The translations under genes and the position numbers were made by a program. Shown piece by piece: positions 42,804-64,000 of a DNA stretch of 64,000 nucleotides (the first letter of the stretch is position 1; each line of letters begins with the position of its first letter). The DNA comes from Okeanomitos corallinicola TIOX110 (GTDB taxonomy: Bacteria; Cyanobacteriota; Cyanobacteriia; Cyanobacteriales; Nostocaceae), in the NCBI RefSeq assembly GCF_038050375.1, contig NZ_CP150886.1, positions 2,521,318 to 2,585,317 on the forward strand, read 5' to 3'. Below the pieces are notes generated by a model, which did no database searches, was not told the origin of the DNA, and saw only the letters and a list, made by a program, of their open reading frames with translations.

Positions 42804-42939
42804 GTTTTTAGGTGTTAGGGGATGGTAGTGGGGAAGGCGATCGCTTGTTGAAAGAGAAAGTAAGAAAAGGGCGATCGCACAATACTAATCTGCCTTATAT
42901 TAAAATGTCAATCATCACTCAATACAGAGAGGTTAGACT
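42804..42939. promoter_or_regulatory. Short gap with two HIP1 sites and the restriction-gene ribosome site
   Basis: Two HIP1 octamers lie at 42837-42844 and 42869-42876. AGAGAGG at 42926-42932 is 7 nt from the GTG at 42940 and decides that start. Confidence 0.6.
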
Positions 42940-46251: not shown

Positions 46252-46326
46252 ATGTATTGACTTGAGTACATCCAGATAAATTATCCTAAATTGTAGGGGC
46301 ATCATAAAATTTGCCCTTGCACTTGA

Positions 46327-46440
46327 TTACACCCAATCAAAAGTCCTACTAACCGCCTTCTTCCACAACTCACAATAACCTTCCCTCTCCACATCATCCA
46401 TGTTCTCTTCCCAAGTCTGATCTAAAAGCCAATTTTCACT
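46327..46440 (-). pseudogene. FGGY-kinase (glycerol kinase-like) C-terminal fragment
   Basis: About 37 codons: LSENWLLDQTWEENMDD, then ELWKKAVSRTFDWV and TAA at 46327-46329. The W...P/E-M...Y..W..AV.R...W pattern is that of the glycerol kinase C-terminus. The rest of the gene is absent. Assignment rests on a short stretch. Confidence 0.45.
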
Positions 46441-46773
46441 TAATGGGTGGCAAGGTGGCTAAACAGCTTGTTTCATAAGGGATAGAGCCTGAAAGCCACG
46501 TTGAAAAAAGAGGCGTTTATAAGGTATAACAATTATAAGCGATCGCTCTCATATTTAACATTAAAAAAAATTTACAGAATATGATTATTAACAATTACCT
46601 TCTAAAATCTCTATAAGAATGTTCCAACCAATAAATAATCCAATACTACTCATTGCGATCGCAACATCTGTCTCTCATTCCCAGTCTGGAGACTGAGAAT
46701 GGTTTTTGAAAGGTTCTACCTTTCTTTTTTATCTCACGCAAAGACACAAAGGAGCAAAGATAAGAAGATATTT

Positions 46774-46961
46774 TTAGGCTACTCCATAATCTGTATAGGG
46801 GCGTTTATAAGGAGGATGTAAACCTAGTACAATATCTTCTTTAGGTACTCCCATTTTTACTAAATCTGCGGTGGGATTTTCTTCTGTGAGATTTTGTTGT
46901 AACCAAACTTTGCCGTTGTTAATATCTAGGTGTATAACATTCCGATAAACACGATTTAAAA
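46774..46961 (-). pseudogene. xisI C-terminal fragment
   Basis: About 62 codons: RVYRNVIHLDINNGKVWLQ, then LVKMGVPKEDIVLGLHPP and KRPYTDYGVA, the standard end of XisI (fdxN element excision controlling factor). A TAG at 46962-46964 and no upstream coding show the 5' half is lost. XisI proteins usually pair with XisH, not seen here. Confidence 0.75.
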
Positions 46962-47020
46962 TCTAGAGAATAGGTTTGTTTGTACCTGAAACCTCCAAGA
47001 GTATAATTTAAAAGCACTAG

Positions 47021-47134
47021 ATGTCTACACCGATTTATCACATCACCCACATTGATAACTTAACCTCCATAATCACCAGTAGGGGATTGATAGCAGTTCT
47101 CGAATATATTTCGAGAACATACAAATGTTATTGA
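47021..47134 (+). pseudogene. darT N-terminal fragment
   Basis: ATG 47021 encodes STPIYHITHIDNLTSIITSR, the typical start of DarT (DUF4433), which ADP-ribosylates thymidine in single-stranded DNA. Homology ends at the hairpin near 47096; the frame then reads through it to TGA 47132-47134. Neither the darT remainder nor darG is present. Confidence 0.7.
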
Positions 47135-47557
47135 TCATGTCCACAAAAGAAGATGATCTCATTGCCAGAGCGGAACTGTTGCAACAAGCGATTGCGACTT
47201 TGCTTCTTATGATTCAACAAATTAAAGCGGCGGGGGAAATCGCGCCTCCTGGTTGTTCTGTTTCCCGTTATCAAGCACGGGGTAAACAAGGGGTTTATTG
47301 GTACTATAAGTTACACGCTTCTCAACCCATTTTCCCTACTTCTCAACCAGGCAAGTTAACTAAATACAAGCATTTAGGGAAGGCTGGAAGTCCTGCTCAT
47401 ATTGATGCGGTTCTCTCGGTTGCTCGGAGGACTCAGGTTGATTACTTACAATCATGTATTGATTCTCTGCGACAAAACTGGGCTGACTTATACAACAGTC
47501 TCAAGGAGAAAAAGTAAGTCTCTCAATTTTCCTTGTTCTCGCAATTAAAACGCGAAC
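47096..47557. mobile_element. Hairpin-bounded mini-cassette, about 460 bp
   Basis: The left end is a perfect palindrome (GTTCTCGAA and TTCGAGAAC within 47096-47118). The right end is an imperfect one (GTTCTCGC 47535-47542, GCGAAC 47552-47557). Between them is only the 130-aa gene. The left flank is darT and the right flank a dynamin-like gene, both cut at the cassette. The same design occurs at 15171-16067. I infer a mobile or selfish unit; its ends are approximate. Confidence 0.55.
47125..47517 (+). CDS. Cassette protein, 130 aa (DUF6788-like)
   Basis: ATG 47125 (or ATG 47137). Helical N-terminus (LIARAELLQQAIATLLLMI), a middle with CSVSRYQARGKQGVYWYYKL (a strand-turn-strand like a small DNA-binding fold), KYKHLGKAGSPAHIDAVLSV, and a helical end. 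The YWYY...LGK pattern recalls the DUF6788 family, from memory. It is basic and may bind the flanking hairpins. A fragment of the same family is in the 15-16 kb element. No transposase motif, so the means of movement is unknown. Confidence 0.6.
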   Translation: MLLIMSTKEDDLIARAELLQQAIATLLLMIQQIKAAGEIAPPGCSVSRYQARGKQGVYWYYKLHASQPIFPTSQPGKLTKYKHLGKAGSPAHIDAVLSVARRTQVDYLQSCIDSLRQNWADLYNSLKEKK

Positions 47558-47566
47558 TCTTTTCTC

Positions 47567-48040
47567 TTGATCTTACCCCTTTTTTTCCTTAACCGAACAG
47601 TATTGGATCAGGGATATGAAACTAAAGTAGTTGAGAAGAGGAAATTTACACATTGGTTTTGGATAGTTCCTAAAAAAGAGACAATTAGAGTTAAACGTCC
47701 AGATAAAAAAGAAGATTACTATACTGTTTCTTTACAAGAAATTATTGACAAAGCTAATGAATCAATTGAACAAAGCATTAAAAATATAAAACAGGGAATA
47801 AACCAATATTTAGATGAAGACTTCAAACAACGAGTTAATATATTTTTCAAAGACCTTGATATTTACTTAAGTAACTACCGCGAAAGTTTAATTCAATCAC
47901 AGCAGGATCAAAAATTGCAAGTTGAGGAGAAAGAAAAATTAGTTACTGAACTTAATTACTTATTCTCTGAATCAAGAGAAAAAACCAAAAAAGCTGATGC
48001 TTTTTTACAATACGTAGGTGATTTAATAAGGAATAAGTAA
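47567..48040 (+). pseudogene. Dynamin-like GTPase (RdcA/CrfC-like), C-terminal fragment
   Basis: The coherent part starts about 47590 (VLDQGYETKVVEKRKFTHWF). It is a helical C-terminal stalk (SLQEIIDKANESIEQSIKNI, LQVEEKEKLVTELNYLFSES). The GTPase domain that should precede it is missing, cut off at the cassette. The RdcB-like gene follows with a 1-nt overlap. In E. coli the dynamin-like yjdA (crfC/rdcA) precedes yjcZ (rdcB) in the same order, which supports the identity. Confidence 0.6.
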
Positions 48041-49098
48041 TGACTAATCTTTTTTCTCCTCAAGAATCAGGTAATTTCCAACAAAATACAGGTTTTGTAA
48101 CTCCATCTACCCAAACCTTAGAAAAACTGCAACGTCGAGTTCCTGTTGTGGGAGATAAAGCCATTATTGACTTAATAAATGGCATCCAAATTAACAAAGA
48201 AATGCTCCGCTATCGCAAAAATAGAGGATGGTTTGGAAACCTAATATCTAAACTAGATGGCAGTGATAATAAACGCCAAATTCTATTAGATGGTAACTTA
48301 ATTGCAGGACAAGAAGCACTAGCTAACTGGGTTTTAGAACTGACTGACTCATTAAAAATTAGTCAAACTGCCTTAGAAATTACTCAAAACTCATTATTAG
48401 AAGCTCGTGATGCTATTCGTCATCAAAAACAACGACTGCAAAAACAAGAAGATGCAATAAATAAACTGAGTGAACAATTCAATCAATTAGCTGAACAAGT
48501 ACATCAAAGATTGAATAATATAGAATCACGAATCCGTAAATTAGAAGTACGAGTAGCTGCTAATGAAGACTTAGATCATATTATCACAGCTTGGGCTGCT
48601 GGACAAACTTACAGTCAACTACCTTGGGCAATACAAATTGCATTATTAGCACGGGAAGTATTCAGCAGTTCAGTAATTAACTATGAATTAGAAACAGGAG
48701 ATAAAGAACGGTATCGGCAATTATTAGTTAATAAAATTATCGCTCATTCTAAACAATTACCTAACAGTTTTTTTGGAATAGGTGATTTATTAGAACAAAC
48801 TTGGATTTCCATGAATAATGATGATAGAGAATTAACTGCTGGCTTATTAGAAATTCGTTCTATTCCTCAAAAAAGATTAACAAATATACCTCATTTATTT
48901 GTCATTGGTACAACATTAGAATTAGCAACACTTCCCGAAGAAGTTAGACCAAATAAACCTGCTCAAAGTGCAATTTATCTGTGTCGCGCTCAAATTGATA
49001 GTATTTCTCGTACCACCGACGCACGGGAATTTATCACCACTATTGTTGAAGAAACAGCAAACGATTGTCTAACAATAATCAATAATATTTCTAATTAA
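48040..49098 (+). CDS. RdcB/YjcZ-like protein
   Basis: 352 aa. Helical throughout, with a strong coiled coil (QKQRLQKQEDAINKLSEQFN, VHQRLNNIESRIRKLEVRV) and a C-terminal domain (AAGQTYSQLPWAIQIALLAR) that resembles the diguanylate-cyclase regulator RdcB. It overlaps the dynamin stalk gene by 1 nt and precedes the patatin gene by 5 nt, so all three were one operon. Its partner has lost the GTPase, so its role here is unclear. Family call is from memory. Confidence 0.65.
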   Translation: MTNLFSPQESGNFQQNTGFVTPSTQTLEKLQRRVPVVGDKAIIDLINGIQINKEMLRYRKNRGWFGNLISKLDGSDNKRQILLDGNLIAGQEALANWVLELTDSLKISQTALEITQNSLLEARDAIRHQKQRLQKQEDAINKLSEQFNQLAEQVHQRLNNIESRIRKLEVRVAANEDLDHIITAWAAGQTYSQLPWAIQIALLAREVFSSSVINYELETGDKERYRQLLVNKIIAHSKQLPNSFFGIGDLLEQTWISMNNDDRELTAGLLEIRSIPQKRLTNIPHLFVIGTTLELATLPEEVRPNKPAQSAIYLCRAQIDSISRTTDAREFITTIVEETANDCLTIINNISN

Positions 49099-49103
49099 TA
49101 AAT

Positions 49104-50111
49104 ATGAAAACAGCTAACCCGACATTTGGACTCGTACTCACTGGAGGAGGTGCAAAAGGAGCATATCAAGCCGGTGCATTAAAATATATTGCAGAAATCG
49201 GATTAGTACCACATATTATTGCAGGAACTAGCATAGGCGCTCTAAATGGTGCAGTTTTGTCATCTTATCGCCCTTTTTCCCAAGCAGTACAGCAGCTTAA
49301 CGAATTTTGGAAAGAACTAGCCGAAGCTGAGATTTTACGCCCCAATACAGGTACAATTCTCCGCACACTTAGTTACACTACTCAAACCTTTGTACCCATA
49401 CTGCGGGAATGGATGCTTCATTTCCTACTAGAACAGGGGATATTAAAAGATTCTACCGCAATTTTTGACCCTGCACCCATTGAAAAACTATTAAGAGAAA
49501 AAATCAATCCTAACAGCCTAAGAAATGGAATTGAGTTATGGGTTACAGTATTTCCCAGCTTGAAAATTCCCGGTTTAGGTTACGACTGGTTAATTAATTT
49601 TGTTCGCGCACACACCGGGACAGATGCTCACTGGCTTTGTGTACAAGACTTCACAGATGATGAAACAATTCATAATCTTCTTTTAGCTAGTGCTGCTCTT
49701 CCTTTAGCATTTCCTAGTAGAGAAGTAAATGGAAAATCTTACGTTGATGGTGGGTTAGCTGATAACGTTCCTTTAAAAGCTTTAGCTGTGCGTGGCTGTA
49801 CTCATGCAATTATTATTCACTTGCAAAATGGAGTAACTTGGAATCGTCATGATTTTCCAGAACAAACTATTATTGAAATTAGACCAGAACAGCCGATTAA
49901 TAAATCAAATATGCCAATTATAGGTTTAATTGATAGTTGGTTAGACTTCAGTTTTGAACGAATTACCGAACTCCAACAGCGTGGATATGAAGATGCACAA
50001 CGTTGTTTAACTCCCATTATTCAAACTTTAACCACTGTCAAAAAACAACGTCAGACTCATGATAGACTGGTTAACTCTACACAGCAGCTATTGAATGACC
50101 CTCCCCTATAA
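49104..50111 (+). CDS. Patatin-like phospholipase
   Basis: 335 aa. Oxyanion-hole motif GGGAKG at 14-19, nucleophile Ser43 in GTSIG, and the catalytic Asp near 215 in YVDGGLADNVP, so the Ser-Asp dyad is complete. No signal peptide. Patatin phospholipases are membrane-degrading effectors in several defence systems. As the third gene of a dynamin/RdcB operon it could be one, but the family also has housekeeping members. Confidence 0.9.
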   Translation: MKTANPTFGLVLTGGGAKGAYQAGALKYIAEIGLVPHIIAGTSIGALNGAVLSSYRPFSQAVQQLNEFWKELAEAEILRPNTGTILRTLSYTTQTFVPILREWMLHFLLEQGILKDSTAIFDPAPIEKLLREKINPNSLRNGIELWVTVFPSLKIPGLGYDWLINFVRAHTGTDAHWLCVQDFTDDETIHNLLLASAALPLAFPSREVNGKSYVDGGLADNVPLKALAVRGCTHAIIIHLQNGVTWNRHDFPEQTIIEIRPEQPINKSNMPIIGLIDSWLDFSFERITELQQRGYEDAQRCLTPIIQTLTTVKKQRQTHDRLVNSTQQLLNDPPL

Positions 50112-50149
50112 AAAATTATCGCCAATTCAGTTAGAAATATTTTCTGTTA

Positions 50150-50662
50150 TTAAAGGTTTGCAACAATATCTTGTAAAGGCAACATTAATGTTAAAGGTTC
50201 TATCGGTGAGGGCTTAAATTTATGTTTTAGATAAAATTGTTTAGCTTCTTCATCTTTCGCATGAACTAAAATACATCGTATTCCTACAATTTTGGATGCT
50301 TGTAGAACCCGAAAAATTGCATCTCTTAGTAAACCAGATCCTACACCTTGCCCTTCCCATTGTTCATCAACAGCCAACCTACCAATGATCATACAAGGCA
50401 CTGGATCTGGTGCATTTTGCTTGACTTTTCTAATAGCCACTGAGTGATATACACCAGAACTTGCCAAACAGTAATAACCAATTACTTTATTTTCACAAAT
50501 TACTACATAAGTTCTAGCAGTATCCCCCTCATTCTTTAAAGCTTTTTCCCTCAACCAATTATTTAAAGTTTCTGACCTTGATTTGAATTGTGATATATCA
50601 TGGCTAGAATTAATTGGTTGAGGAGCTTCTATAATTTTCGTCTGTGCCATTCTTAATCCCAA
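50150..50662 (-). CDS. GNAT-family acetyltransferase toxin (AtaT/TacT-like)
   Basis: 170 aa. The GNAT fold is shown by VIGYYCLASSGVYHSVAI, MIIGRLAVDEQWEGQGVGSG (the acetyl-CoA pyrophosphate loop Q/R-x-x-G-x-G/A as QGVGSG) and CILVHAKDEEAKQFYLKHKF. Downstream of, and overlapping by 10 nt, a DUF1778 antitoxin. This order is that of AtaRT/TacAT modules, in which the enzyme acetylates aminoacyl-tRNA and stops translation. All core motifs intact. Confidence 0.9.
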   Translation of the reverse strand: MGLRMAQTKIIEAPQPINSSHDISQFKSRSETLNNWLREKALKNEGDTARTYVVICENKVIGYYCLASSGVYHSVAIRKVKQNAPDPVPCMIIGRLAVDEQWEGQGVGSGLLRDAIFRVLQASKIVGIRCILVHAKDEEAKQFYLKHKFKPSPIEPLTLMLPLQDIVANL

Positions 50663-50943
50663 GGTGATTTAGCAGCCAAAAACTTACGTAGTTCCTCATC
50701 TACTTGAGGTGGTGCATCTAAAATATCAATAAATTCTTGATATTTCTTTTCATCTAAAGCAAAAAAAGTTTGCTCACAAATTACTTTTTCTGCTTCTCTA
50801 CAAGCGACATCTAGCATGAAATCAGAACGAGTTTTACCAAGAATTGATGCAGCATAATCAATTAAATTACGCTGTTTTTCTTGAACTCTAATATTAATAA
50901 CCTGATTGCGCCCAGGATTATCCATTTCAAAGGAAGCTACCAT
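50653..50943 (-). CDS. DUF1778 ribbon-helix-helix antitoxin (AtaR/TacA-like)
   Basis: 96 aa, ATG 50943 with AGGA 7 nt upstream. The N-terminus has INIRVQEKQRNLIDYAASIL, the ribbon-helix-helix, then GKTRSDFMLDVACREAEKVI, and a C-terminal helix (KKYQEFIDILDAPPQVDE) that would neutralise the acetyltransferase. It overlaps the toxin gene. A promoter with an inverted repeat in its -35 region lies directly upstream. Confidence 0.9.
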   Translation of the reverse strand: MVASFEMDNPGRNQVINIRVQEKQRNLIDYAASILGKTRSDFMLDVACREAEKVICEQTFFALDEKKYQEFIDILDAPPQVDEELRKFLAAKSPWD

Positions 50944-50978
50944 TTTAGTTTCCTGAATTTTATTACTCCATTACCCCT

Positions 50979-51015
50979 ACTATAGATAATCGTGTACACA
51001 ATGTCAATACATTGT
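50979..51015 (-). promoter_or_regulatory. Sigma-70 promoter with overlapping operator for the toxin-antitoxin operon
   Basis: On the minus strand TTGACA (51002-51007), 17 bp, TATAGT (50979-50984). The inverted repeat ACAATGT (50998-51004) and ACATTGT (51009-51015) covers the -35 box and suits a ribbon-helix-helix dimer. Autorepression is inferred. Confidence 0.7.
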
Positions 51016-51103
51016 TGTCTGGGTGGTAGGCTGGTCGTCATAACCTTATACACGAATAAATAGACTTGTTAAACAACTAGACATTAGATGTAGCGACATA
51101 CAA

Positions 51104-51137
51104 AAAAATGTGTCATAAATAACTTAGGCACATTTTT
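51104..51137. terminator. Candidate hairpin between antitoxin promoter and LRAT gene
   Basis: AAAAATGTG (51104-51112) pairs with CACATTTTT (51129-51137), loop 16 nt, flanked by A and T runs. It could end transcription entering from either side. AT-rich, so stability is modest. Confidence 0.4.
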
Positions 51138-51183
51138 ATTTTGTTGTTATTAATAAAATTCGAGTATTCAAGGTGACTAGAGC

Positions 51184-51992
51184 ATGAGAGAAGATCACGT
51201 TTACTATAATTGCGGTGCTTACAGCCATCATGGTATAGACTGCGGTGATGGTACAGTTATTCATTATACAAAGAACTATGGGAAGATTTCTCATATTTCT
51301 TGGGCTTCCTTTGCATCTGGAAACACGGTTTTTGTAAGAGAGTACGGCCATGTGATACACCAGATATTGTGGTTTGGCGTGCTGAAAGCAGATTAGGAGA
51401 AGATGCTTATCACCTATTTGATAATAATTGTGAACACTTTGCTACTTGGTGTAAAACAGGTGTACACGCCAGCGAACAAGTAAAAAATGCAGGAGCAGTT
51501 GGAGCGGGAGCATCTGGAAGTGGAGCCGCAGTTGCGGGTAGTCTTGGTGTTGTTAGTGCTGCTGGTGCGGCTGCTGGGTTAAGTGGTGCTGGTATTATGT
51601 CAGGTTTAGCAGCAGTTGGAGGTAGTGCAGTTGCGGGTATTGGCGTACTTGGTGCTGCTCCTGCTGCTATTACAACACTAGCTATGAATCAGGTTTTAAA
51701 CGATGATGAGAGTCTTCCTGATGATGAACGTGAAGCTCGTGCTGTTGGTAGAACTATGACAACTGTAGGCGCAGTAGCTGGTACTGCTGGAGCAGTTGGT
51801 ACAGTTGCAGCTGCCGGAAGTGTTGCAGGTTTGAGTCCTGCTGGAATTACTTCTGGTTTAGCCGCAGTTGGATCAACAGTAGGAATGGGAATGGCTGCCG
51901 GTGTTGCTATTACAGTGGCCGCACCAGCAGCAGCAGCGGCCGCTGTTGGCTATGGTACTTACAAATTCTGGAAATGGATATCGGAAAAGTAG
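51184..51992 (+). pseudogene. LRAT-like protein with Gly/Ala-rich tail, frameshifted once
   Basis: AAGGTGA precedes ATG 51184. The first frame has the LRAT/NlpC-P60-type His region (NCGAYSHHGIDCGDGTVIHY); the second has the catalytic Cys motif LFDNNCEHFATWC. Homology leaves one frame and enters the other at TACGG|CCATG, about 51347, consistent with one lost base. After it, ~150 residues are almost all Gly, Ala, Val and Ser, with two copies of a GLS-AGI-SGLAAVG unit, probably a membrane region. LRAT-type enzymes are thiol acyltransferases or lipases. It may be a pseudogene, a sequencing error or a frameshifted gene. Confidence 0.75.
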
Positions 51993-52042
51993 GCAGTCAC
52001 TTCACTATATTTCTGAGACATATTACATTTGAGTTCTAAAGT

Positions 52043-52177
52043 ATGAACAACCTTGATGCAATACTTGATAAAGCCTTGAAGCTTGGTAGTTTGATGTCAT
52101 TAGATTTTCATAATCCAGATGGTACAGCACTTCCGGCTGTAATGAGGTACACTAGATTAAAATACAAATGCTTTTAA
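52043..52177 (+). pseudogene. Gene start cut by IS630
   Basis: ATG 52043 encodes NNLDAILDKALKLGSLMSLD and some 25 more residues, then runs into IS630 sequence and stops at TAA 52175-52177. It starts 51 bp after the LRAT stop, so it may be the second gene of that operon. Family unknown. Confidence 0.45.
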
Positions 52178-52996
52178 ATGAAATCATACTCTCTGGATCT
52201 TCGAGAAAAAATAGTTGCTGCCCATATTCAAAAAAACATATCAATCAGGAAAGTAGCTAATATATTTTCTGTGTCAAAAAGTTTAGTACAAAAGCTGGTA
52301 AAACAACAAAAAATTGATGGAGATTTACAACCCAAGAAGCGAGGAAAACCACAATTTAGTCATCTGACAAATGCGGACATAGATTTAAGAGAATTGGTTG
52401 AAGCAAATTCGGATGCAACATTGATAGAATTGTGTGAATTATTTGCAGATAAAACTGGTAATTGGGTAGGTCGAAGTGCAATGTGTTCTGCATTACAGAA
52501 ATTAGGATTAAATCGTAAAAAAAAACAACGCGGAGTACCCAAGCAGGAACAGAAAGAGTTCTGAATTTAAGATTAGATTATTGGGATCAGGTCAAAAATA
52601 TAGAGCCAGAAAATTTAGTATTTCTGGACGAAACTGGTATCCTACTTGGCTTAACGAGGACTCATGCCCGCTCACAACTAGGAGCAAGAGCTTACTCTGT
52701 CAAACCCTTTTATCGAGGCTCAAAGGTTACAGTAATTGGAGCTATTAGTATTCAAAAAGTAGTTGCATTAATGACAATGAATGATTCAATGGATGGCAAC
52801 GCTTTTGAAGTATTTGTTGAAAAGTTTTTAGTGCCACAGTTATGGTCGGGAGCAGTGGTAGTAATGGATAATTTATCCGCACATAAACGAGATTCAATTG
52901 TGTCAATGATTGAAGCTGTTGGTGCTTCAGTTCTTTGTTTATCCTCATACTCTCCTGATTTTAATCCAATTGAATTATGGTGGTCACAACTCAAAA
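52148..52996. mobile_element. IS630-type element, right end missing
   Basis: The left edge is near a TA at 52148 (GTACACTAGATTAAAATAC). The transposase lies in two frames joined at a run of nine As. After about 52996 the sequence changes to a different gene, so the right end and transposase C-terminus are lost. Confidence 0.7.
52178..52996 (+). pseudogene. IS630 transposase, two frames, C-terminus lost
   Basis: First frame (52178-52564): KSYSLDLREKIVAAHIQKN, an HTH, then a second helix pair. Second frame in -1: EPENLVFLDETG, VVVMDNLSAHKRD, and YSPDFNPIELWWSQLK, the three parts holding the D, D and E of IS630. They join at the A9 run 52517-52525, where -1 slippage is normal in this family. 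The tail after SQLK is missing, so the copy is dead. Confidence 0.85.
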
Positions 52997-53408
52997 TTCA
53001 GTGCAAGGTGAATTTGCTACATCAGCCAATAGCGCACCACGTAGCATTGTTGGTTCTCGCGCCCAAATTCATACTCGTAGACCTTCTACTTGGAATGATT
53101 TAACTGAGACTGAAACATCTCTATTGGATTTTTTGAGATGTAAGGGAAAACTAAGTGAGTTATCTCCTACTGAAACAAAACAAAAATTGCTTAATTATTT
53201 TCGAGAAGGAGATAGGTTTGAGCGACTTGTTAACGTGGCAGATAAAGAACCTCCAAGAGTGCGAGCTATGCTGGGAGCAATCGGGCAAGAGCTAGGAAAG
53301 AGTCGAGATATCTTAGTAAAAATCAAGAAAGGATTAAACCCCGTATCTCGTTTTGATTTTGGTAATCTAAGGAATCTTCGCTATGCCAAGGAGTGGCAAG
53401 CTAAGTGA
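52977..53408 (+). CDS. AbiEi-like antitoxin partner, 5' end replaced by IS630 sequence
   Basis: 143 aa. ATG 52977 lies inside the IS630 remnant, in another frame, so the first ~7 codons are IS-derived. The rest (RPSTWNDLTETETSLLDFLR, LVNVADKEPPRVRAMLGAIG, FDFGNLRNLRYAKEW) resembles the partner of AbiEii-type nucleotidyltransferases. It overlaps that gene as GTGA. The N-terminal wing of the family is missing. Expression from a fused start is possible but doubtful. Confidence 0.6.
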   Translation: MVVTTQNSVQGEFATSANSAPRSIVGSRAQIHTRRPSTWNDLTETETSLLDFLRCKGKLSELSPTETKQKLLNYFREGDRFERLVNVADKEPPRVRAMLGAIGQELGKSRDILVKIKKGLNPVSRFDFGNLRNLRYAKEWQAK

Positions 53409-54888
53409 AACTTTACGAACATCCAGAATTCGCAGATGCTATCAAAGCTGCTAAACAACATTTTGCACATCCAGGGCTAACCGAACAGTTCATTGAAAAG
53501 GATTACTATGTCACAGAAGCTCTGCGAATTGTGGCACAGAACTATCCAAATGAAGTGATTTTTAAAGGAGGAACGAGTTTATCTAAGGGGTGGAAGCTAA
53601 TAGAAAGGTTCTCAGAAGATATTGACCTGTTTTTGAATCCTCAAAGTTTTAATCCATCTCTTAGTAAAAATAGTATTGATAAACATTTAAAAAATATAGA
53701 AACATTGGTAAATGGGCATCCCGGTTTTACACTTGATAACACCAGGGGTAATAGTGGTAAAGGAACTCATCGTCATAGTTTTTTTAACTATAAGCCTCAG
53801 TTTTTAGGTAATAAACCAATAGCTAATAATGTTTACTTAGAAATGGGAATACGTAGTGGTAATTATCCTGTAGAAGAAATATCAATATCTTCTTATTTAG
53901 CTGATTTCTTAAAAGAAACAGGTATTAGTTTAGGTACAGATGATGAATCTGCATTTCCTATGAAATTGTTACATTTCCGACGCACTTTTGTAGAGAAATT
54001 ATTTGCTATACACTCTAGAGTGTTGCTTTTAAAAGAAGAAAAACAACCAATAGGAACTCACGCCAGACATTACTACGATCTGTACTGTTTAGCCCAAAGG
54101 CAAGAAGTACAAGAAATGCTTAACACGGAAGAATATAATAACATTAAAAAAGATTGTAATGACATTGGACAACAACATTTTAATAATTATCAACCACCTG
54201 AAAATTTGAGTTTTTCAAAGAGCATAGCAATTTTTCCAACAGGAGACTTACGACAATTAATTGTAGCGACCTGCAATACTAATCGCTCAAACCTGCAATC
54301 AAGGGATTTTCAAACCAGGATTAATTGCAACTATAATTATGCTTTAGCCAGGATTAACTGCAACTGAACCAGGATTAATTGCAACCAACCTGCAATCATC
54401 GGTTTGAGCCAGGATTATCTGCAACTATAAAAGTAAAAAAAACGAACGTTTTGTTAACTGCCTCACTGGTAAGGCTTAGAGAACCTTAAACCGTTGCTTT
54501 TCGAGTTAAAAAACTCAGTAAAGAATTCAAAGTTAATCTATTAAATTCTCAAATGAGTTTTTTGACAAACCCCTGCGAATACTGAAAACTCAGTCCTGGT
54601 AAAGCGTCGAGTTTATTTGCAAATAATCCTGGTCGAAACGGATGATTGCAGGCTGGTTGCATTTAATCCTGGCTCAGTTGCAATTAATTCTGGTTCAAAT
54701 GAAATTATAGTTGCAAATAATCCTGGCTGGAGACAACGATGATTGCAGGTTGGGGGACTTATAATTGCAGGTCGCTACAATTAATTGCTAAGGAATATAG
54801 CCAACAATGCAGAAATTTATGCTATGGCGATTATCCAACATGGGAAGAAATAGAATCATGCTTTGAGCAATTACGAAATATTTTGTAA
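53405..54888 (+). pseudogene. AbiEii-type nucleotidyltransferase, split by a 516-bp element
   Basis: GTG 53405. The enzyme core has VIFKGGTSLSKGWKLIERFS and EDIDLFLNP, the GG(S/T)...D-x-D of the DNA polymerase-beta superfamily; in type IV AbiE systems it pairs with AbiEi. At 54262 the mobile element enters, and the frame reads a few codons of it before its stop at 54367. From 54787 the C-terminus resumes (AKEYSQQCRNLCYGDYPTWE) to TAA 54886-54888. Removing the element and one AATTAATT restores an unbroken frame. Interrupted recently. Confidence 0.85.
54263..54778. mobile_element. 516-bp element with mirrored subterminal motif arrays
   Basis: Terminal repeats GTAGCGACCTGCAAT (54263-54277) and ATTGCAGGTCGCTAC (54764-54778); 8-bp target duplication AATTAATT at 54255-54262 and 54779-54786. 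Each 163-bp end holds three CCTGCAAT and four CCAGGATTAATTGCAAC-type boxes. Their order from the tip (P P B B B P B) is the same on both sides. Left boxes start at 54270, 54292, 54315, 54348, 54369, 54389 and 54409; right boxes at 54764, 54742, 54710, 54677, 54656, 54645 and 54616. The 190-bp centre has no ORF. Non-autonomous; the mobilising transposase is unknown. Confidence 0.9.
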
Positions 54889-56548: not shown

Positions 56549-59500
56549 CTAACTATTAGTATCACCTTTATCGCAAACTTTTTTAAGACGCTGATCTCCT
56601 TTATCAGCATTCAAATTATGTTGTAAATAATCACCTACCCAATCACAGCTTTGTTGCATTACCTGATTTAAGTCTGACTTCCATATAGCAGCAGTTTTCT
56701 CTAGTTCTTCTAAATCTAAAGTCCACAAAATAACCGAATCATCCCTGCTGGCACTGGCAACAGTTTTACCATCAGGACTGAAACTAACATTGTCAGCGAT
56801 ATCAGTGTGTCCCTCTAGAATTTTGAGCAAATCACCGTTTGTATTCCAAACAGTGATTCTTCCATCTCTAGTTGCGGCAGCAATTAATTTACCGTTGGGG
56901 CCAAATCTAGTACTGTAGACTTGACCAGCGTAAATAGAAGAAACATCAATAGTGTTGAGCAGTTCGCCATCTAGATTCCAGAGTTTAATAGTTCCATCCC
57001 GACTAGAAGTAGCGATCTCCGTACCATCAGAACTAAAGCTAATATTAAAGACTTGATCTGAGTGTCCATCCAAAGACTCGATTTGTCTACCCTTGAGATT
57101 CCAGAGTTTAGCCTTGTTATCTTTGCTAGCTGTAGCAATCATGTTACCATCTGGACTAAAAGTAATGTCGTAAATTCTATCTTTATGTGCTTGGAAAGCA
57201 TCTAATTCTTTACCGTCTCGACTCCAAAGCTTAACTTCTCCAGTCCAATCTGCCGTTGCAAATATCTTACCGTTGGGACTAAAACTTAAACTATCAACCC
57301 GGTTATCTTTGGAATTTTTAAACCCCGTCAGCGTCTTGATCTGTTTACCATTTCGACTCCATAATCTCACAGTCTTATCTTTGCTCGTAGTAGCGATTAT
57401 TGCACCATCTGGGCTAAATATTACACTTGTCACTATGTCTTTATGCCCTTGTAGGGTATTAATTACTTGACCATTATGATTCCATAGTTTAACAGTTCCA
57501 TCTTGGCTAGCTGTAGCAATTGTTTCACCATCGGGGCTAAAGACTACTCCCCAAACATTATCTTTATGCCCATTCAGCCTCTGAAGCTGTTGGTGGTTGA
57601 AAGCCCAAAGTTTAGCAGTTTGATCGAATCCAGCACTAGCAATAGTTTTACCATCTGGACTGAAAACAACTTGATTCACTTGTCCATTGTGTCCTGTCAG
57701 AGATGGTTTAAGTTGTTCACCATTGAGATTCCAAAATCTAACTGTCTTATCAAAACCAGCACTGACAATAGTTCGACTATCTCTATCTGGGCTGAAACTA
57801 ACACTACTGACCTCACCAGTGTGTCCTTTAAGGGTTTTAAGTACCTTGCCCTCTAAACTCCAAAGCTTGATAGTTTGATCCCGGCTAGCCGTAACCAGCA
57901 TCTTACCATCTGGACTGAAGCTGACGTTGTTGACTGCATCTTGATGGCCCCTGAAAATTTTCTCCTGTCCATCTTTGAGGCTCCACAGCCTGACTGTTTT
58001 ATCCCAACTTGATGCGGCAATAGTATTTCCGTCTGGACTAAAAGTGACAGTGTTTAGTCCACCATCACTCTTATCGGCAGGTGCTGGAACCATAAATTCT
58101 CGAAGCAGCTTTCCATCTCGATTCCAAAGCTTAACGGTTCCATCTTTACTGGCAGAAGCAATGATTTTACCATCTGGACTGAAGCTGACACTATAAACCC
58201 AACCTTTATGTCCTTCTTTATGTCCTTCTTTATGTCCTTCTTTATATCCTTCTATGGTTTTTAGTGGTTGCCCCTGACGATTCCAGAGTTTGATAGTTTT
58301 ATCAAAGCTAGCAGTAGCTATTGTTTGGCTATCTGGACTAAAGCTGACGCTAGCTACAACACCTTCATGTCCTTTTAGGGTTTTTAGTTTTTTTCCCTTA
58401 CGACTCCAGAGTATGACAGTGTTATCAGCACTAGCAGTAGCGATTAACTGATGATCTGGGCTAAAGCTCACACTCCAAACTTCATCTTGATGTCCATCTA
58501 GACGATTTTGCTCTCTAACTTTAAACAATGACCATTGCAGAGTTTTCTGTGCTTGTTTCCATGTTTCATCTTTAGGCTCTACCTGAATTTGCTTTGTTAG
58601 AATTGGCTCTGCTGCCTTCATTGCTGAAAGTAAAGCATCAAAGGGCTGACCTGAATTTCTCAGTACATCAGACGATTGACTCAGAGCATTAACTTGGTCT
58701 TCTAAAGCGACAACTGCTGCTTGTCTAGATAACCAAGCGATACCAGCAGCAGCTGAAATAATCGTAAAAATAGTGCTAAGTGTAAAGATAGTGATGTTTC
58801 TACGCCGATTCCGGAGTTTGGTACTTAGCTCAATATATTTTTGTTCTTCCCTGGTTAATTCTGGCTGTCTGTCTCGTAGCCAGTTTTCTGCTTCGATTAA
58901 AAATTTCCCTCGTAGTAAGCCTGCATCATCTCTGTTATTTTTCTTCCATTCGATGATTGACGAGCGCAAACGTTCCTGCCAAGTACGAAACTCTCGGTCA
59001 AGATCCAGCCAAATTTTTAGGAGAGACCATTTTTCGATTAGCGCTTCATGAACAATTTCGACAATTTCTTCTTCGATGAGTTTGCCATGGTTATCTAAAA
59101 CTAAGTGATTATTAGTTGTTACAAGCCGAACATTGGCTAAATGTTGAATTAAATCCCAATTTTCTTCACCTATCTGCCTACGATTTGCTATCCGTCTAGT
59201 ATCTGGAGTTCCTTCTCCTGGGTGTCCTGGACGTACAAGTTGAACAAAGATGCGTCTGACTCGCTCTTTTTGTTCTTCATTAAGTTGATTGAAAACCTGA
59301 TCTGCATAGTGAGCGATCGCTTCTTTGATTCCTCCTAGCTGTTTGTATGCATCGTGCGTTAATTTAGCATCCTGTTGTTTCTCCCATAACTGCGTGAGAG
59401 TAAATTCCACCAAAGGCAAGTAACCTGGTTCCATTGCCTTGCCATTCGGCATAATCTCCTCTAATATCAACTCTGTCAATCCAGATTCAATCGTTACACC

Positions 59501-61297
59501 AAATAACTGGGCGGGTTGAGTGATTGCCTGTTCCAACTCAACAGAATTCATTGGCCCAAGCATCTGATCGGCAATGGGAATAACATCAGCAAAGGAGCGG
59601 TCAGAAAGGGCATAACCAAGAAAGTCCGCCCGTAAAGTCAGCACCAGAGTCAGATGTAAATTATAATGGTTAACAGTTTTAACTGCTTCTAATAATCGCT
59701 CTAAAAAGCTCTGACACTCTTGTTTAGAACAAAGAGTATAAAGTTCCTCAAATTGATCTATCACCATTAAAAAGCGAGTACCAGGATTATTCCAAATAAT
59801 CCGTTCGATCACATCTCGAAGCGATTCTGGTTCTTGTCGTAAATCAGTAGCTAGTTTGCGAGTCTCCCTGAGTCGATCATTCTCACTTTCTAGATTTGGT
59901 TCTAAGTACTGAATTAGCTTAAATGCCAAAGCATGAAAGGGGCGATCGCCAGGACGAAAATCCAGAGTCCGCCAATTGCCTTGAGAACACAACTTAGGAA
60001 TTAGTCCTGCAAATACTGCCGAGGATTTACCGCTTCCTGATGGTCCAATCACCGTGACTAAAGGCTCTCTGTGGACAGCATTTTCTAGCTGTTGGGTAAA
60101 GTTTTCTCTGCCAAAGAAGAATGGTGCATCCTCCTTTCGGAAAGCAGACAACCCACGATAGGGGCAGATGTTGGTAGTCCGTCGTCCCAACGCTGACCAC
60201 TTCAGCGGCGCAGATGCAGCATTTTGGCATAGTACAGGAATCCAGCTGGCACAGGGATACTTATCTTCTAAACCATGTAGCCTTTGACGTGCATCTCGTA
60301 CTGCTGCATCTAGAGACTGCCCCCCAGCAAAAGCACTAAGGAAGTGCTTCAAAAACTCCCGTGCTACTTTATCTTCCACAGGTTCCCGCATAACAATTAT
60401 GTTGGGAATGTGTAAATCTTCTAGTTGATATGCTAGACCCAATCCATCACAAGAATTAAATATTGCCAGCTGCAACCCGTGTCGAATAGCTTTTTTGAGA
60501 CCATACTTCAAATCTGCAATTGTCAAAGTGTCCGGGGGGCTGTTTTGATTAATCTCTATCTTTCCCACCTCTTCTAAAGTTTCACTGTGACCAGCAAAAT
60601 ACAAAATATCCCAAGTTTGTTCCCATAATTCATCATTGATTTGATAACGCTCTGGCTGTTGCAGAACTCTGATTTCTGACCTTGGTAATTGCTTTAAAAA
60701 TTCCAGGTCTTGCTCGGATTTAATGCCTTTAGTATTACCCACAATAGCCAAGATTTTTACTTTATCTTCAATAGTAGGTATATTATTTTTGTCCACTTTT
60801 TCAGACTCAGGATTACTCAGGGCTACTTCTCCCATTGAGTATTCCTCAATCAAGTCCCATAACTGCCAAGGGATGCGTCGTAGATTAACTAACTTAGTGG
60901 CATTTTGGTTGCGAAGGCGAAGCAGTACACGCACTTCTTCTGAGGATGTATACTTCGCTAGCAATTTGTCTCGGATACGGCGAAATGACTCAGATTGGTT
61001 TAGCCAGTTATTCAGGTTTCGGCGCAATACATCAGCTTGTTTTTGGGAGTCTTCAATCAGATGCTTAACGGAAAATTGATCAGTTGGTGATGATGGAATT
61101 TTCATCCGTCCCCTCTTCAGCCACGCTATTTGTGATAACTGCCAATCTTTATAAAATTCGAGCATTTCTGGCTTGGGAGGCAGTTCACCAATGGTTTTAG
61201 AAGTAGGGCGTTTATCTCCCTCTTCACCGATTTCAAGAGTGGCTTTAAAGCCACTCTTGAAATCACCCTCTAAACTTAGAACAAATAATTGGCTCAT
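56549..61297 (-). CDS. CHAT-STAND-WD40 protein, 1582 aa
   Basis: Domain order: CHAT protease (~175-365) with His237 in LYFAGHSE and Cys283 in FNSCDG; nSTAND1 NTPase beginning CPYRGLSAFRKED, with Walker A GPSGSGKS (418-425) and Walker B FLMVIDQFEELY; a transmembrane helix (TIFTLSTIFTIISAAAGIAW, ~845-865); then 14 WD40 repeats, enough for two seven-bladed propellers, to the C-terminus. The N-terminus probably regulates the protease. Ligand binding by the propellers would trigger the protease at the membrane. It is last in an operon after DUF1822 and a sigma-like protein. Complete, with intact catalytic residues. Confidence 0.93.
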   Translation of the reverse strand: MSQLFVLSLEGDFKSGFKATLEIGEEGDKRPTSKTIGELPPKPEMLEFYKDWQLSQIAWLKRGRMKIPSSPTDQFSVKHLIEDSQKQADVLRRNLNNWLNQSESFRRIRDKLLAKYTSSEEVRVLLRLRNQNATKLVNLRRIPWQLWDLIEEYSMGEVALSNPESEKVDKNNIPTIEDKVKILAIVGNTKGIKSEQDLEFLKQLPRSEIRVLQQPERYQINDELWEQTWDILYFAGHSETLEEVGKIEINQNSPPDTLTIADLKYGLKKAIRHGLQLAIFNSCDGLGLAYQLEDLHIPNIIVMREPVEDKVAREFLKHFLSAFAGGQSLDAAVRDARQRLHGLEDKYPCASWIPVLCQNAASAPLKWSALGRRTTNICPYRGLSAFRKEDAPFFFGRENFTQQLENAVHREPLVTVIGPSGSGKSSAVFAGLIPKLCSQGNWRTLDFRPGDRPFHALAFKLIQYLEPNLESENDRLRETRKLATDLRQEPESLRDVIERIIWNNPGTRFLMVIDQFEELYTLCSKQECQSFLERLLEAVKTVNHYNLHLTLVLTLRADFLGYALSDRSFADVIPIADQMLGPMNSVELEQAITQPAQLFGVTIESGLTELILEEIMPNGKAMEPGYLPLVEFTLTQLWEKQQDAKLTHDAYKQLGGIKEAIAHYADQVFNQLNEEQKERVRRIFVQLVRPGHPGEGTPDTRRIANRRQIGEENWDLIQHLANVRLVTTNNHLVLDNHGKLIEEEIVEIVHEALIEKWSLLKIWLDLDREFRTWQERLRSSIIEWKKNNRDDAGLLRGKFLIEAENWLRDRQPELTREEQKYIELSTKLRNRRRNITIFTLSTIFTIISAAAGIAWLSRQAAVVALEDQVNALSQSSDVLRNSGQPFDALLSAMKAAEPILTKQIQVEPKDETWKQAQKTLQWSLFKVREQNRLDGHQDEVWSVSFSPDHQLIATASADNTVILWSRKGKKLKTLKGHEGVVASVSFSPDSQTIATASFDKTIKLWNRQGQPLKTIEGYKEGHKEGHKEGHKGWVYSVSFSPDGKIIASASKDGTVKLWNRDGKLLREFMVPAPADKSDGGLNTVTFSPDGNTIAASSWDKTVRLWSLKDGQEKIFRGHQDAVNNVSFSPDGKMLVTASRDQTIKLWSLEGKVLKTLKGHTGEVSSVSFSPDRDSRTIVSAGFDKTVRFWNLNGEQLKPSLTGHNGQVNQVVFSPDGKTIASAGFDQTAKLWAFNHQQLQRLNGHKDNVWGVVFSPDGETIATASQDGTVKLWNHNGQVINTLQGHKDIVTSVIFSPDGAIIATTSKDKTVRLWSRNGKQIKTLTGFKNSKDNRVDSLSFSPNGKIFATADWTGEVKLWSRDGKELDAFQAHKDRIYDITFSPDGNMIATASKDNKAKLWNLKGRQIESLDGHSDQVFNISFSSDGTEIATSSRDGTIKLWNLDGELLNTIDVSSIYAGQVYSTRFGPNGKLIAAATRDGRITVWNTNGDLLKILEGHTDIADNVSFSPDGKTVASASRDDSVILWTLDLEELEKTAAIWKSDLNQVMQQSCDWVGDYLQHNLNADKGDQRLKKVCDKGDTNS
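58205..58252 (-). repeat. 12-bp tandem repeat inside the WD40 array
   Basis: Four units of TTTATGTCCTTC (last one TTTATATCCTTC) encode Gly-His-Lys-Glu steps (KEGHKEGHKEGHK) in the loop between blades 2 and 3. In-frame units suggest copy-number slippage that alters loop length. Confidence 0.85.
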
Positions 61298-61544
61298 TGT
61301 TGATATCTGTAGTTCTTACTTATATGGCTAGAGTCATATCGTTTCCGGGTGCATCGGTATTATTTATTGACTATCTCCCGTTGCAATATCAATAGCTTTG
61401 GGGAAAACATATCATTCCGATGCTACCGGATTTGATATCAGTCACAATATGGGCAATTCACATTCAAGCATTTACTAATTCATACTCCTTTATGCAACGC
61501 CTACCGAGTTCGGATTAATGAAATGATAAATTAAGATTTATTTG
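61298..61544. other. Spacer between DUF1822 and CHAT genes
   Basis: 247 bp. Contains CATCGGTATT and a partial inverted match near 61420 (GATGCTACCGGAT), too weak to call. No promoter recognised. Confidence 0.35.
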
Positions 61545-62507
61545 CTAATTCTCTGCAACGAAAAACGACTCAGTTACACTGGCATTTTCTAAAGAAACAG
61601 CAATACTGAAAAGGTCTCCTGGTTCAGCGGTAAACTTCAATTGGATATAATTATCAGACTCTCTAGATTGATTATCCAAAACAGCAGTTCCATTTTTATC
61701 GAGTAATTTCATTTGTACACTTTCTGGTAGATAGAATTGATCCTTAATTGGATGTAACTGTACAATCAGGTCTACTTCTGTTTCATCATTCACCCTTGGT
61801 ATTACAATTAAAGCTAGTGAATGAGAAACAAGTTGCATACCTAAGTCTATTTTTTTAGCTCTTATGATGTCGAATTCTGATGATAATAAACTTGACTGTC
61901 GGTTTCTTGCACTACCAAAAGCCAGTTCTATCTGTTCTTCGCTTAAAAGTTCCTTCAAAACCAGCCAACCCGCTTCAAAAACTCCCTCAAACCATTGCCG
62001 CAAGTTTACTGGTTTTGGTTGTCTAATATGACTCAGGTATTCTGAAAACTTTGCAAGTGTTCGCAACTCACTAATAGGTAAAATACCTTTATTTTCAGAT
62101 ACTGTTGTGGCGAATCCTATAATTGTCGCCTGTTGCAATGATTCGTTCAGATGGACAACCATATAGCCAATTCTATCTGACCAAACATCTGGTGGTACAT
62201 AACAAACATCTGCATCTGATAGCACCGGACGACACTCTAACTTACCGTAATTTTTTACATCTATATCTGCCACATCTGTAAAAGTTAGCATTACTTTATC
62301 ATGACTATCACTTTGAGCGACATCTGTGTCTAGTCCCATGCATCGCAGATAAAAATCTACTGTATGTACGGCTAAAATATTGTGATAGACTTTTCGGACT
62401 TTCTCGGCAGTAAATTGTGCTTGAGATAACTGTTGCGCTATTCTATGTGCTTTCAAAGGGATAGGGACTGTAAAAGTCAATGCTTCTATCATGCTACTAA
62501 TTTCCAT
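61545..62507 (-). CDS. DUF1822 protein
   Basis: 320 aa, ATG 62507, with GAGG upstream. Helical N-terminus (TVPIPLKAHRIAQQLSQAQF), a central beta-rich part (CYVPPDVWSDRIGYMVVHLN), RQWFEGVFEAGWLVLKELL near 185, and a beta-sandwich-like end (AEPGDLFSIAVSLENASVTE). This is the DUF1822 family, cyanobacteria-specific, which repeatedly sits between a sigma-like gene and a CHAT/WD40 gene. Molecular role unknown; it may link regulation to the protease. Confidence 0.8.
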   Translation of the reverse strand: MEISSMIEALTFTVPIPLKAHRIAQQLSQAQFTAEKVRKVYHNILAVHTVDFYLRCMGLDTDVAQSDSHDKVMLTFTDVADIDVKNYGKLECRPVLSDADVCYVPPDVWSDRIGYMVVHLNESLQQATIIGFATTVSENKGILPISELRTLAKFSEYLSHIRQPKPVNLRQWFEGVFEAGWLVLKELLSEEQIELAFGSARNRQSSLLSSEFDIIRAKKIDLGMQLVSHSLALIVIPRVNDETEVDLIVQLHPIKDQFYLPESVQMKLLDKNGTAVLDNQSRESDNYIQLKFTAEPGDLFSIAVSLENASVTESFFVAEN

Positions 62508-62546
62508 AATTGAAAAATTACCTCGCCAATTAGCTAAATTTTTGTA

Positions 62547-63554
62547 TTAATCTTGTAAGTATTCCTGAAAAGTAGAGCTAAATTTTTTTACGCAACGATT
62601 GTAAAAACTACAAAGGGTTTGAATGGAATCAATTTGCCATTTATCTGCCAAATATTCCCAAGTTTTATCTCCCCACACTTTCTCCAACGCAATAACTTTA
62701 AAATTTACATCTGGTCTTCCTGTGATGTGTGCGTTACTAAACACACTATCTGGGTCTGATTCGATCAAATCTCTCAGTTGTTGTGATTTGGAAAACGCTG
62801 CTTCTTTTTGCCAAGGTATTTCTAAAGTTTCTGCGTTATCTAGGGAGACTATTTTAATTCTAGAGTGCTTATCATCTGTTATTTTTTTGCTAATTTTTGG
62901 TAATTTTGTGATACCCCTCTTCTTATATTTATCGCGTACATCACTAATTTTTTTACAGAGCAAAAAATTAACCCAAGTCATTAGGTGAGCACGACTTGGG
63001 TCGTATTTGTGAATATTTAGGCACACATACAGTAGAGTTTCCTGAATTGCCTCGTTATATATGTATTTACCATCTAAACTAGGCGGCAATAGAAAAGATA
63101 CGTTGTTAAGATTGTGAATTTTATCTGATATTTGGATAGCTTCAACTAACAAATTTAAAGCCAGCCTCCGTTGATTACTATCAGGTGCGGCCTTTTTGGC
63201 TTCTTGAGCTATCTGATCAATTATTATGTGATCGCTCAATATTTTTTTCAAAGCTCGATTCCGCCGAGAATTTGCCCATTCTCTTATGGGTATGCGTTGT
63301 GGATTATAACTATCTATATCGTGGCTAATATCATGCAAAAGTTGCTTCCGTAAGTCCAAAGAAATTTTTTGCACAACATGAGGGAGTAATTTTGACGGAC
63401 GACAAAGTCTGTGCGATCGCATTATTGCATCAACTAGTTCACCCAGAGCTTGCTGTCGTTCTAGACTCTGTGTTAGGTACTGTTGTAGCCTATCAGCTAA
63501 CTGTTGAAGTTGCACATCAAAATCAGGTAAATCACTTGGGAAAGAGTCAACCAT
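62547..63554 (-). CDS. Sigma-70-like regulator of the CHAT operon
   Basis: 335 aa from ATG 63554 (GGAAG 9 nt upstream), preferred to the TTG at 63605. A helical N-terminus leads to a sigma region-2-like segment (DPSRAHLMTWVNFLLCKKIS, ~210-230) and a C-terminal helix-turn-helix (WEYLADKWQIDSIQTLCSF). It is divergent from true sigma factors and may be a one-operon regulator. First gene of the operon, 39 bp before DUF1822. It may recruit RNA polymerase to its own promoter or serve as an adaptor; this is inference. Confidence 0.6.
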   Translation of the reverse strand: MVDSFPSDLPDFDVQLQQLADRLQQYLTQSLERQQALGELVDAIMRSHRLCRPSKLLPHVVQKISLDLRKQLLHDISHDIDSYNPQRIPIREWANSRRNRALKKILSDHIIIDQIAQEAKKAAPDSNQRRLALNLLVEAIQISDKIHNLNNVSFLLPPSLDGKYIYNEAIQETLLYVCLNIHKYDPSRAHLMTWVNFLLCKKISDVRDKYKKRGITKLPKISKKITDDKHSRIKIVSLDNAETLEIPWQKEAAFSKSQQLRDLIESDPDSVFSNAHITGRPDVNFKVIALEKVWGDKTWEYLADKWQIDSIQTLCSFYNRCVKKFSSTFQEYLQD

Positions 63555-63605
63555 ACTAAATTCTTCCGAAGATTTCAAGATACAGTAGTCCTGGAAAAGT
63601 ATCAA

Positions 63606-64000
63606 GTGATACTATTTAACCCTGATTAGGTTCGGCGAATCTAAAATTGCACTCCCGATGATAATGAGGAATGAAACTTTGAACCTCTAATCATCTTTCT
63701 GACTGACTGGCAAAACTTTACGCCAGTCCTACTTTTTGTTACAAAACTTTATATAATCCATTGTTACCCTTACAATCAATGAAGATAAAAGTGGCGTAAA
63801 AACTATGGAGTATTTCTGAAAGATTAGTAGGTAGGTATGCTTGGATCTGCGTTGCATTCTCTGCTTTAACCGCAGCAGAGGTATTCTTAATCTACCCCAT
63901 AGGTCAAGGTTATTTCTCTAACTGAAGCAAAGCGTCATTAATTTCTTTATGGAGTTTAATGGCTGCTAGAATTTTTTAACGAATACTTAGAAGCAGTAAA
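63606..64000. other. Upstream region of the sigma-like operon, to the window end
   Basis: Should contain the operon promoter. Between 63911 and 63968 the minus strand encodes [20 protein letters not shown] followed by a stop, perhaps the tail of a gene entering from the right, but an in-frame TAA near 63978 in an A-run breaks it. No other gene seen. Confidence 0.4.

Follow-up and report, generated by a model that had tools for sequence, protein, structure and literature searches.

The 64,000-nucleotide stretch of Okeanomitos corallinicola TIOX110 analysed here (contig NZ_CP150886.1, positions 2,521,318 to 2,585,317; the window) carries on its minus strand an operon of three genes. They encode a sigma (σ)-like protein that by family profile and predicted fold is a divergent factor of the extracytoplasmic function (ECF) type, a DUF1822 protein, and a large protein in which a CHAT protease is joined to an nSTAND1 NTPase, a predicted membrane helix, and WD40 repeats. 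We propose, at about even chances, that the large protein is an envelope-crossing receptor-protease that frees a self-regulated ECF-type σ factor, which then acts at its own promoter. The operon is a member of a family that has already been described, and its gene arrangement is not new because Kaur et al. (2021) have published the linkage of σ, DUF1822, and CHAT genes. The additions made here are a promoter-like site that precedes the σ gene in this operon and in some of its relatives and is rare in other places, variants of the σ protein with a doubled σ2 domain or a membrane helix, and the exchangeable sensor modules of the CHAT protein.

Gene linkage and identity of the σ factor

The σ-like gene (62547..63554, minus strand) encodes 335 residues from an ATG start, with a TTG at 63605 as a further possible start. 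It is followed after 39 nt by the DUF1822 gene (61545..62507; 320 residues; Pfam PF08852, E 8e-65), and after another 247 nt by the gene of the CHAT-nSTAND1-WD40 protein with its membrane helix (56549..61297; 1582 residues), recognized as an open reading frame and by Pfam. A preliminary description of this DNA, made from the sequence alone, had placed the three open reading frames at the same coordinates, and had suggested an analysis of genome neighbourhoods.

DUF1822 is present in 36 of 40 related genomes. The linkage sample consisted of the odd ranks of 150 DUF1822 places, which gives 74 without the window, plus 6 more; the counts of linkage, doubling, and distance used a σ profile without the row of a response regulator from locus L053. 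A σ gene precedes DUF1822 at 63 of the 74 places (26 of the window's class and 37 of a longer class), CHAT follows it at 47, and all three are conserved together at 39. Less than 2,500 nt of contig is left at 5 of the 27 DUF1822 places that lack CHAT. Among 73 σ-bearing loci, the window's own included, DUF1822 comes after σ in 69, and two of the remaining four run into the edge of the locus. The distance matrices of the three proteins are correlated across 49 loci (σ-DUF1822 0.75, σ-CHAT 0.84, DUF1822-CHAT 0.83), and none of 1,000 permutations was as high, with species kinship uncorrected. The linkage of σ, DUF1822, and CHAT is not due to chance. The longer σ class (L032-L047 and others) matches the window's class weakly in region 4, and its form of about 400 residues mostly lacks CHAT behind DUF1822. 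The Nudix gene downstream, which the preliminary description had considered as a further component, was rejected because its homologue occurs in one of 125 loci, the window's own, with no counterpart in the other 124.

On the window's σ sequence alone, Sigma70_r2 is found at E 0.048, which is under the Pfam cut-off. At the level of the family, Pfam detects Sigma70_r4_2 in 9 and Sigma70_r2 in 8 of 27 members (E 0.1 or better); Sigma70_r4_2 reaches E 1.7e-5 at best, and the window protein itself has no match to it. The family profile compared with the PDB finds ECF σ factors first, including RpoE (2q1z, E 2.3e-4) and SigK (4nqw, 1.9e-3), in the first 5 of 22 rows with E up to 0.064. The AlphaFold model of the window's σ protein (predicted local distance difference test, pLDDT, 88.1; predicted template modelling score, pTM, 0.63) was compared by VIA with the 993 usable chains ranked highest by Foldseek, and RNA polymerase or σ entries are the source of all 50 VIA rows among the matches listed. 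The second σ2-like domain (residues 109-212; 62919..63230) rests on structural alignment to the σ2 domain of Mycobacterium tuberculosis SigC (2o7g), which aligns over 87 of 88 residues at a root mean square deviation of 2.4 Å and Z 6.7. The σ4-like helix-turn-helix region (residues 256-334; 62553..62789) rests on the Sigma70_r4_2 matches of the family and on VIA alignment to full σ chains, such as 1or7_B with residues 108-335. The two-domain matches have deviations near 20 and Z of 7.5 at most. No Pfam match to σ1.1 or σ3 was found, and σ2 is connected to σ4 by a linker of about 43 residues, of which 23 have a pLDDT below 50. Because the profile list and the fold list agree, the first gene is taken to encode a divergent ECF-type σ factor with σ2 and σ4, and the σ-like character given to it earlier is upheld at the family level for regions 2 and 4.

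In addition, the σ protein of the window has an extra σ2-like domain at its N-terminus (residues 12-106; 63237..63521), recognized by profile comparison and in the model, where its helices span residues 12-25, 31-46, 58-82, and 90-106. The profiles of the N-terminal and C-terminal copies match each other with probability 99.3 and E 1.2e-20; this comparison and the search for helices in σ proteins used the σ profile that includes one foreign row, the L053 response regulator. A second σ2-like domain occurs in 22 of 110 unique σ proteins from the fetched loci, many of which were fetched by likeness to the window's σ, and in 1 of 27 in the DUF1822 sample, which was not chosen by σ. The reading that about one fifth of the family is doubled was therefore dropped. 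A hydrophobic stretch of membrane length is present between σ2 and σ4 in five σ proteins; a sixth hit (L096) stands at the extreme N-terminus. The five (L181, L182, L183, L184, and L185) have 372-425 residues, with the predicted membrane helix lying after the σ2 pair and before σ4, at roughly residues 226-281, and in L184 the stretch may be two helices.

The promoter-like site and its putative targets

The bipartite site AAAGTTTTGTAAC-N14-GCGTAAAG (63716..63750, minus strand) resembles an ECF promoter and lies upstream of the σ gene, at a distance of 110 nt if measured to the TTG and of 161 nt if measured to the ATG. Its motif score is 40, compared with 35 for the best of 1,030 shuffled upstream regions, and exceeds every other site of the window by 5 points. 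The site is conserved and recurs before σ genes as AAAGTTTTGTAAC, 14 or 15 nt, and GCGTAAAA. ECF promoters, among them those of Bacillus subtilis σW, have this layout, with an AAC in the first half and a CGTA about 16 nt away in the second. The 99% limit of 1,030 dinucleotide shuffles is passed by 36 of 103 non-redundant σ-upstream regions, and in 18 of these 36 the halves stand just 3-5 nt apart, too close for the σ2 and σ4 of one σ. The close spacing is found with 12 of 14 long and 6 of 21 short σ proteins (p 0.0016; length cut at 285 residues, kinship ignored), to which the window is an exception, and nothing is built on it here. Upstream of five σ genes (L169, L173, L175, L176, and L180), a GCATAA followed about 19 nt on by GAGTT(A) lies near motif halves 3-5 nt apart, and is perhaps part of a three-part site of some doubled σ proteins.

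In 1.57 Mb of loci plus the window, 15 distinct sites score at least 38. Eleven of them precede σ genes (the one at L097 inside an open reading frame of the opposite strand), one precedes a CHAT-STAND gene, and three precede other genes of the same loci; at L076, a motif site stands 34 nt before the CHAT-STAND gene. Lowering the score to 36 adds one further site that has no gene start nearby. Beside the operon at L078 (6589-9927, minus strand), a protein of 1113 residues that looks TPS-like by eye has a weaker motif of score 36 located 83 nt upstream. For the 247-nt gap that precedes the window's CHAT gene, the idea of a further promoter was discarded, since the best score there is 29 and random pieces have a mean of 28.6.

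The strict pattern AGTTTTGTAAM-N13-16-GYRTAAA, with the reversed pattern as control, occurs 28 times in 13 of 17 selected genomes against no reversed match, and twice in 17 genomes without a σ match. Among 388 evenly drawn genomes it occurs 26 times in 18, against 5 reversed matches, and a match to the window's σ is found in 13 of these 18 pattern-bearing genomes as opposed to 145 of all 388 (p 0.0025; pattern and σ counts from the same 388 genomes among the matches listed). In the window's own genome, the operon's copy is the only motif site placed like a promoter. Six of the seven exact matches, the operon's apart, either fall within genes or stop 2 nt short of a start codon, a three-mismatch site (C1:9459) is inside a gene, and a one-mismatch site (C2:149500) is antisense to the end of a gene for 985 residues; the reversed controls of these searches gave 2, 2, and 3 matches. 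By eye, this last gene (L268; G000 contig C2, 178 kb) is like a Tn3-type transposase, and it lies beside toxin-antitoxin-like genes.

Nine of the 28 sites in the 17 selected genomes stand before σ genes. The others include sites before three M23 peptidases in one genome (G025), of which one carries a ricin-type lectin and another a tectonin domain, before two similar TPS-type proteins in another (G012; one of them scanned), and before trypsin-like proteins (G006 and G143) and a COP23 protein (G006). No gene was placed for four sites (L256, L260, L261, and L264), and three are inside an open reading frame of the opposite strand (L239, L256, and L259). A signal peptide, predicted by a crude script, is marked in 8 of 15 distinct non-σ targets versus 226 of 917 other genes (one-sided p 0.017).

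The proposed receptor-protease and the DUF1822 protein

The CHAT protein begins with a conserved domain of about 124 residues (60926..61297), which is assigned by position and in that respect fits EACC2 (Kaur et al. 2021). The CHAT domain follows at residues 125-360 (60218..60925; E 1.9e-14 when the N-terminal 376 residues are scanned alone). His237 (codon 60587-60589) and Cys283 (codon 60449-60451) are taken as its catalytic pair and are kept in all 94 aligned CHAT domains, 93 of which are different. No solved chain with sequence kinship to the CHAT module was found at E 10 in a profile search. The nSTAND1 NTPase covers residues 379-791 (58925..60163; Pfam E 3.1e-112) and has the P-loop GPSGSGKS at residues 418-425 (60023-60046). 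Hydrophobicity predicts a membrane helix at residues 834-856 (58730..58798), with KLRNRRR just before it, and by the positive-inside rule we take the N-terminal side to be inside. Pfam finds 14 WD40 repeats further on (56687..58525), a number that would fit about two seven-bladed propellers. The intact dyad, the intact P-loop, and, as a predicted helix, the membrane tether of the preliminary description are found again, and its two propellers agree with the repeat count.

Of 83 complete proteins, 81 have a hydrophobic helix behind CHAT, and the modules behind CHAT are exchangeable. Among 88 proteins they are CHASE2 in 60, periplasmic-binding in 13, STAND-WD40 in 7, and other in 8, with Pfam names taken from seven scanned representatives, five of which have the extracellular CHASE2 or periplasmic-binding modules behind the helix. 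The window's genome contains another DUF1822 operon (L072), in which the sensor module is of the periplasmic-binding kind. On the CHAT tree of the 88 proteins, the STAND-WD40 form needs three changes, and the window's row is on a long branch. At L103, a STAND-WD40 protein is encoded separately beside the CHAT protein, like the window's fusion split in two. A DUF928-like gene stands after CHAT in 55 of the 60 CHASE2 forms and in none of the 28 others, and is therefore a partner of the CHASE2 sensor and not of the system; Pfam confirmed DUF928 in all three proteins scanned.

The model of the DUF1822 protein combines an α/β part at the N-terminus with an Ig-like β-sandwich at the C-terminus, and the search for membrane helices gave none for this protein. 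When viral contigs were scanned with the window's DUF1822, a search able to reach close relatives only, no viral source was confirmed.

Mechanism, rival readings and known systems

In the proposed mechanism, the membrane would separate the C-terminal propellers, as receivers of the signal, from the CHAT and NTPase parts. Once the signal arrives, the STAND NTPase would assemble the CHAT domains. The activated CHAT protease would cut a partner, most likely the DUF1822 protein, which would hold the σ factor inactive until it is cut. The freed ECF-type σ could then transcribe from the bipartite promoter before its own gene and give positive feedback, and in some relatives it may also drive exported peptidases, a lectin-bearing peptidase, and TPS proteins. 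The self-contained sensing circuit of the preliminary description agrees with this as far as linkage and σ homology go, and gains support because the promoter-like site precedes the σ gene; its suggested Nudix component falls away.

Several observations speak against this mechanism. In the order given by Foldseek alone, no σ chain appears before rank 37 (E 2.1), and models that lack a clear match can likewise reach Z values below 8, the range in which the VIA maximum of 7.5 falls. The σ gene is absent beside 11 of the 74 DUF1822 places, 8 of which have CHAT. An anti-σ fold was not seen in the fold comparison of DUF1822, where the matches are filled by the Ig-like C-terminal part and the N-terminal part is barely covered. 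A model of σ and DUF1822 as one read-through chain has pLDDT 81.7 and pTM 0.73, and comes with no coordinates or inter-domain errors, so contact is not readable from it. The promoter score was built from the same upstream regions in which the site recurs, and was therefore tested on other sequence. There, the strict pattern is missing from 132 of the 145 σ-bearing genomes, and therefore fits part of the family. The motif searches found no exported target in the window's genome, and 7 of the 15 putative targets in relatives are not marked as exported; of these seven, a trypsin (L248) looks exported by eye and the others do not.

STAND-WD40 proteins are usual in conflict and cell-death systems, which counts for reading the operon as one of these. 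As proposed by Kaur, Iyer, Burroughs, and Aravind (2021; PMC8195603) for the same gene set, with activation by autopeptidase cleavage in the part of that paper considered here, the C-terminal module would sense an invader, and the caspase-like domain would release itself and act on cell proteins, while the σ factor adds a transcriptional response. Moreover, genes for an SNF2 helicase, an Eco57I-like methylase, a patatin phospholipase, and an AbiEii-type toxin lie about 2-18 kb off in the window (38472-54367, plus strand), a possible defence neighbourhood. However, the sensor modules of relatives are mostly extracellular, with CHASE2 and periplasmic-binding forms making up 60 and 13 of the 88, and the putative targets to which a name could be given in relatives comprise exported peptidases and surface proteins. 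In addition, the window's CHAT part has no PADLOC match, and 1 of 15 relatives matches SAVED_CHAT weakly (E 0.003). PADLOC has no model that matches the σ protein or the DUF1822 protein, and for the large protein it gives HEAT-ARM_XIII over the WD40 part (E 2.6e-47) and, weakly, mad8, TPR, and mad3 (E 0.006-0.013). An anti-phage role of the operon is not indicated, and a conflict or cell-death system is on balance a rather doubtful explanation.

The σ factor itself may also be the substrate of CHAT, in which case its extra N-terminal σ2, or the membrane helix in relatives, would inhibit it until removed by cleavage, with DUF1822 as a scaffold. The sections of PMC8999054 considered here describe σ factors that are activated by losing their own extension, and the second σ2-like domain in 22 of 110 σ proteins and the hydrophobic σ2-σ4 stretch in five fit this idea. 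We consider it unlikely, as the remaining 88 of 110 (26 of 27 in the sample not chosen by σ) lack the extra domain, yet likewise stand beside DUF1822. A σ-derived adaptor that no longer works in transcription, with the upstream motif as the site of another regulator, would explain why single sequences lie as far from σ profiles as E 0.048 to Sigma70_r2, why five relatives have a membrane helix between σ2 and σ4, and why 18 upstream regions have motif halves 3-5 nt apart. Nevertheless, the fold of σ2 and σ4 is kept, and the AAC/CGTA motif, at the spacing known for ECF promoters, is tied to the σ gene, so that such an adaptor appears quite improbable.

Canonical ECF σ factors respond to an envelope signal through proteolysis and regulate their own genes. 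Their membrane anti-σ factor is cleaved by DegS and RseP, according to the passages considered in PMC10028731 and PMC8999054. The proposal made here would share the envelope signal, proteolysis, an ECF σ, and autoregulation with them, whereas protease and receptor are one protein here and the window's DUF1822 has no membrane helix. As far as covered in the part of PMC8195603 considered here, EACC2-caspase proteins have a constant N-terminal domain, a caspase-like peptidase, and variable C-termini including STAND and CHASE2; where TRADD-N is absent, most such neighbourhoods include an ECF σ and DUF1822 as well, and a transcriptional output is proposed. The operon has the CHAT domain with an intact dyad and the linked σ and DUF1822 genes of these systems. 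In the same part of that paper, the DUF928 partner seen here with CHASE2 forms goes unmentioned, as do target genes, a promoter, and any doubling of σ2, and DUF1822 is treated as a TPR protein, in contrast to the Ig-like sandwich at the end of the present model. Among the papers listed in the literature searched, mainly open-access, none is named on a promoter, regulon, or doubled σ2 for the σ family linked to EACC2 and DUF1822.

In type III-E CRISPR systems (Craspase), as described in the portion of PMC10028731 considered here, the TPR-CHAT protease Csx29 cuts Csx30, the inhibitor of an ECF σ. A CHAT protease and a σ gene in one locus, with σ motifs in the locus, are shared with the operon. 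The Craspase locus also has the σ inhibitor, a role that DUF1822 would play in the operon, and the two systems plainly resemble each other in logic. In Craspase, RNA sets off the protease through Cas7-11, a protein that the three genes of the operon do not encode; Pfam found no CRISPR effector among the four genes scanned, and no search was aimed at Cas7-11. The consulted part of PMC3501461 describes cyanobacterial metacaspases with ANF_receptor or CHASE2, and deltaproteobacterial operons of metacaspase and σ70. These share the caspase-like domain with an extracellular sensor, and σ genes in some operons, whereas the window's protein matches the CHAT profile and DUF1822 is unmentioned in that part.

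The system could, tentatively and with the chances against it, represent a new class of trans-envelope σ regulation in cyanobacteria. Receptor and CHAT protease would be combined in one protein with exchangeable outer sensors, and would free an ECF-type σ that has an optional second σ2, which would read an extra promoter element or act as a built-in brake, and that in some lineages has a membrane anchor between σ2 and σ4. Such a σ would drive its own operon and, in some species, a few exported peptidases and surface proteins. A σ factor would already be unusual by itself if it carried two σ2 domains or had a membrane helix separating σ2 from σ4. The published proposal for EACC2 systems, in the part of PMC8195603 considered here, left the target genes open. 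The promoter site and the short list of likely targets make the output of the system testable, and point to envelope signalling and secretion, beyond cell death alone. If σ is freed by a CHAT cut in DUF1822, a widespread non-CRISPR system would share the CHAT-inhibitor-σ logic of type III-E CRISPR.

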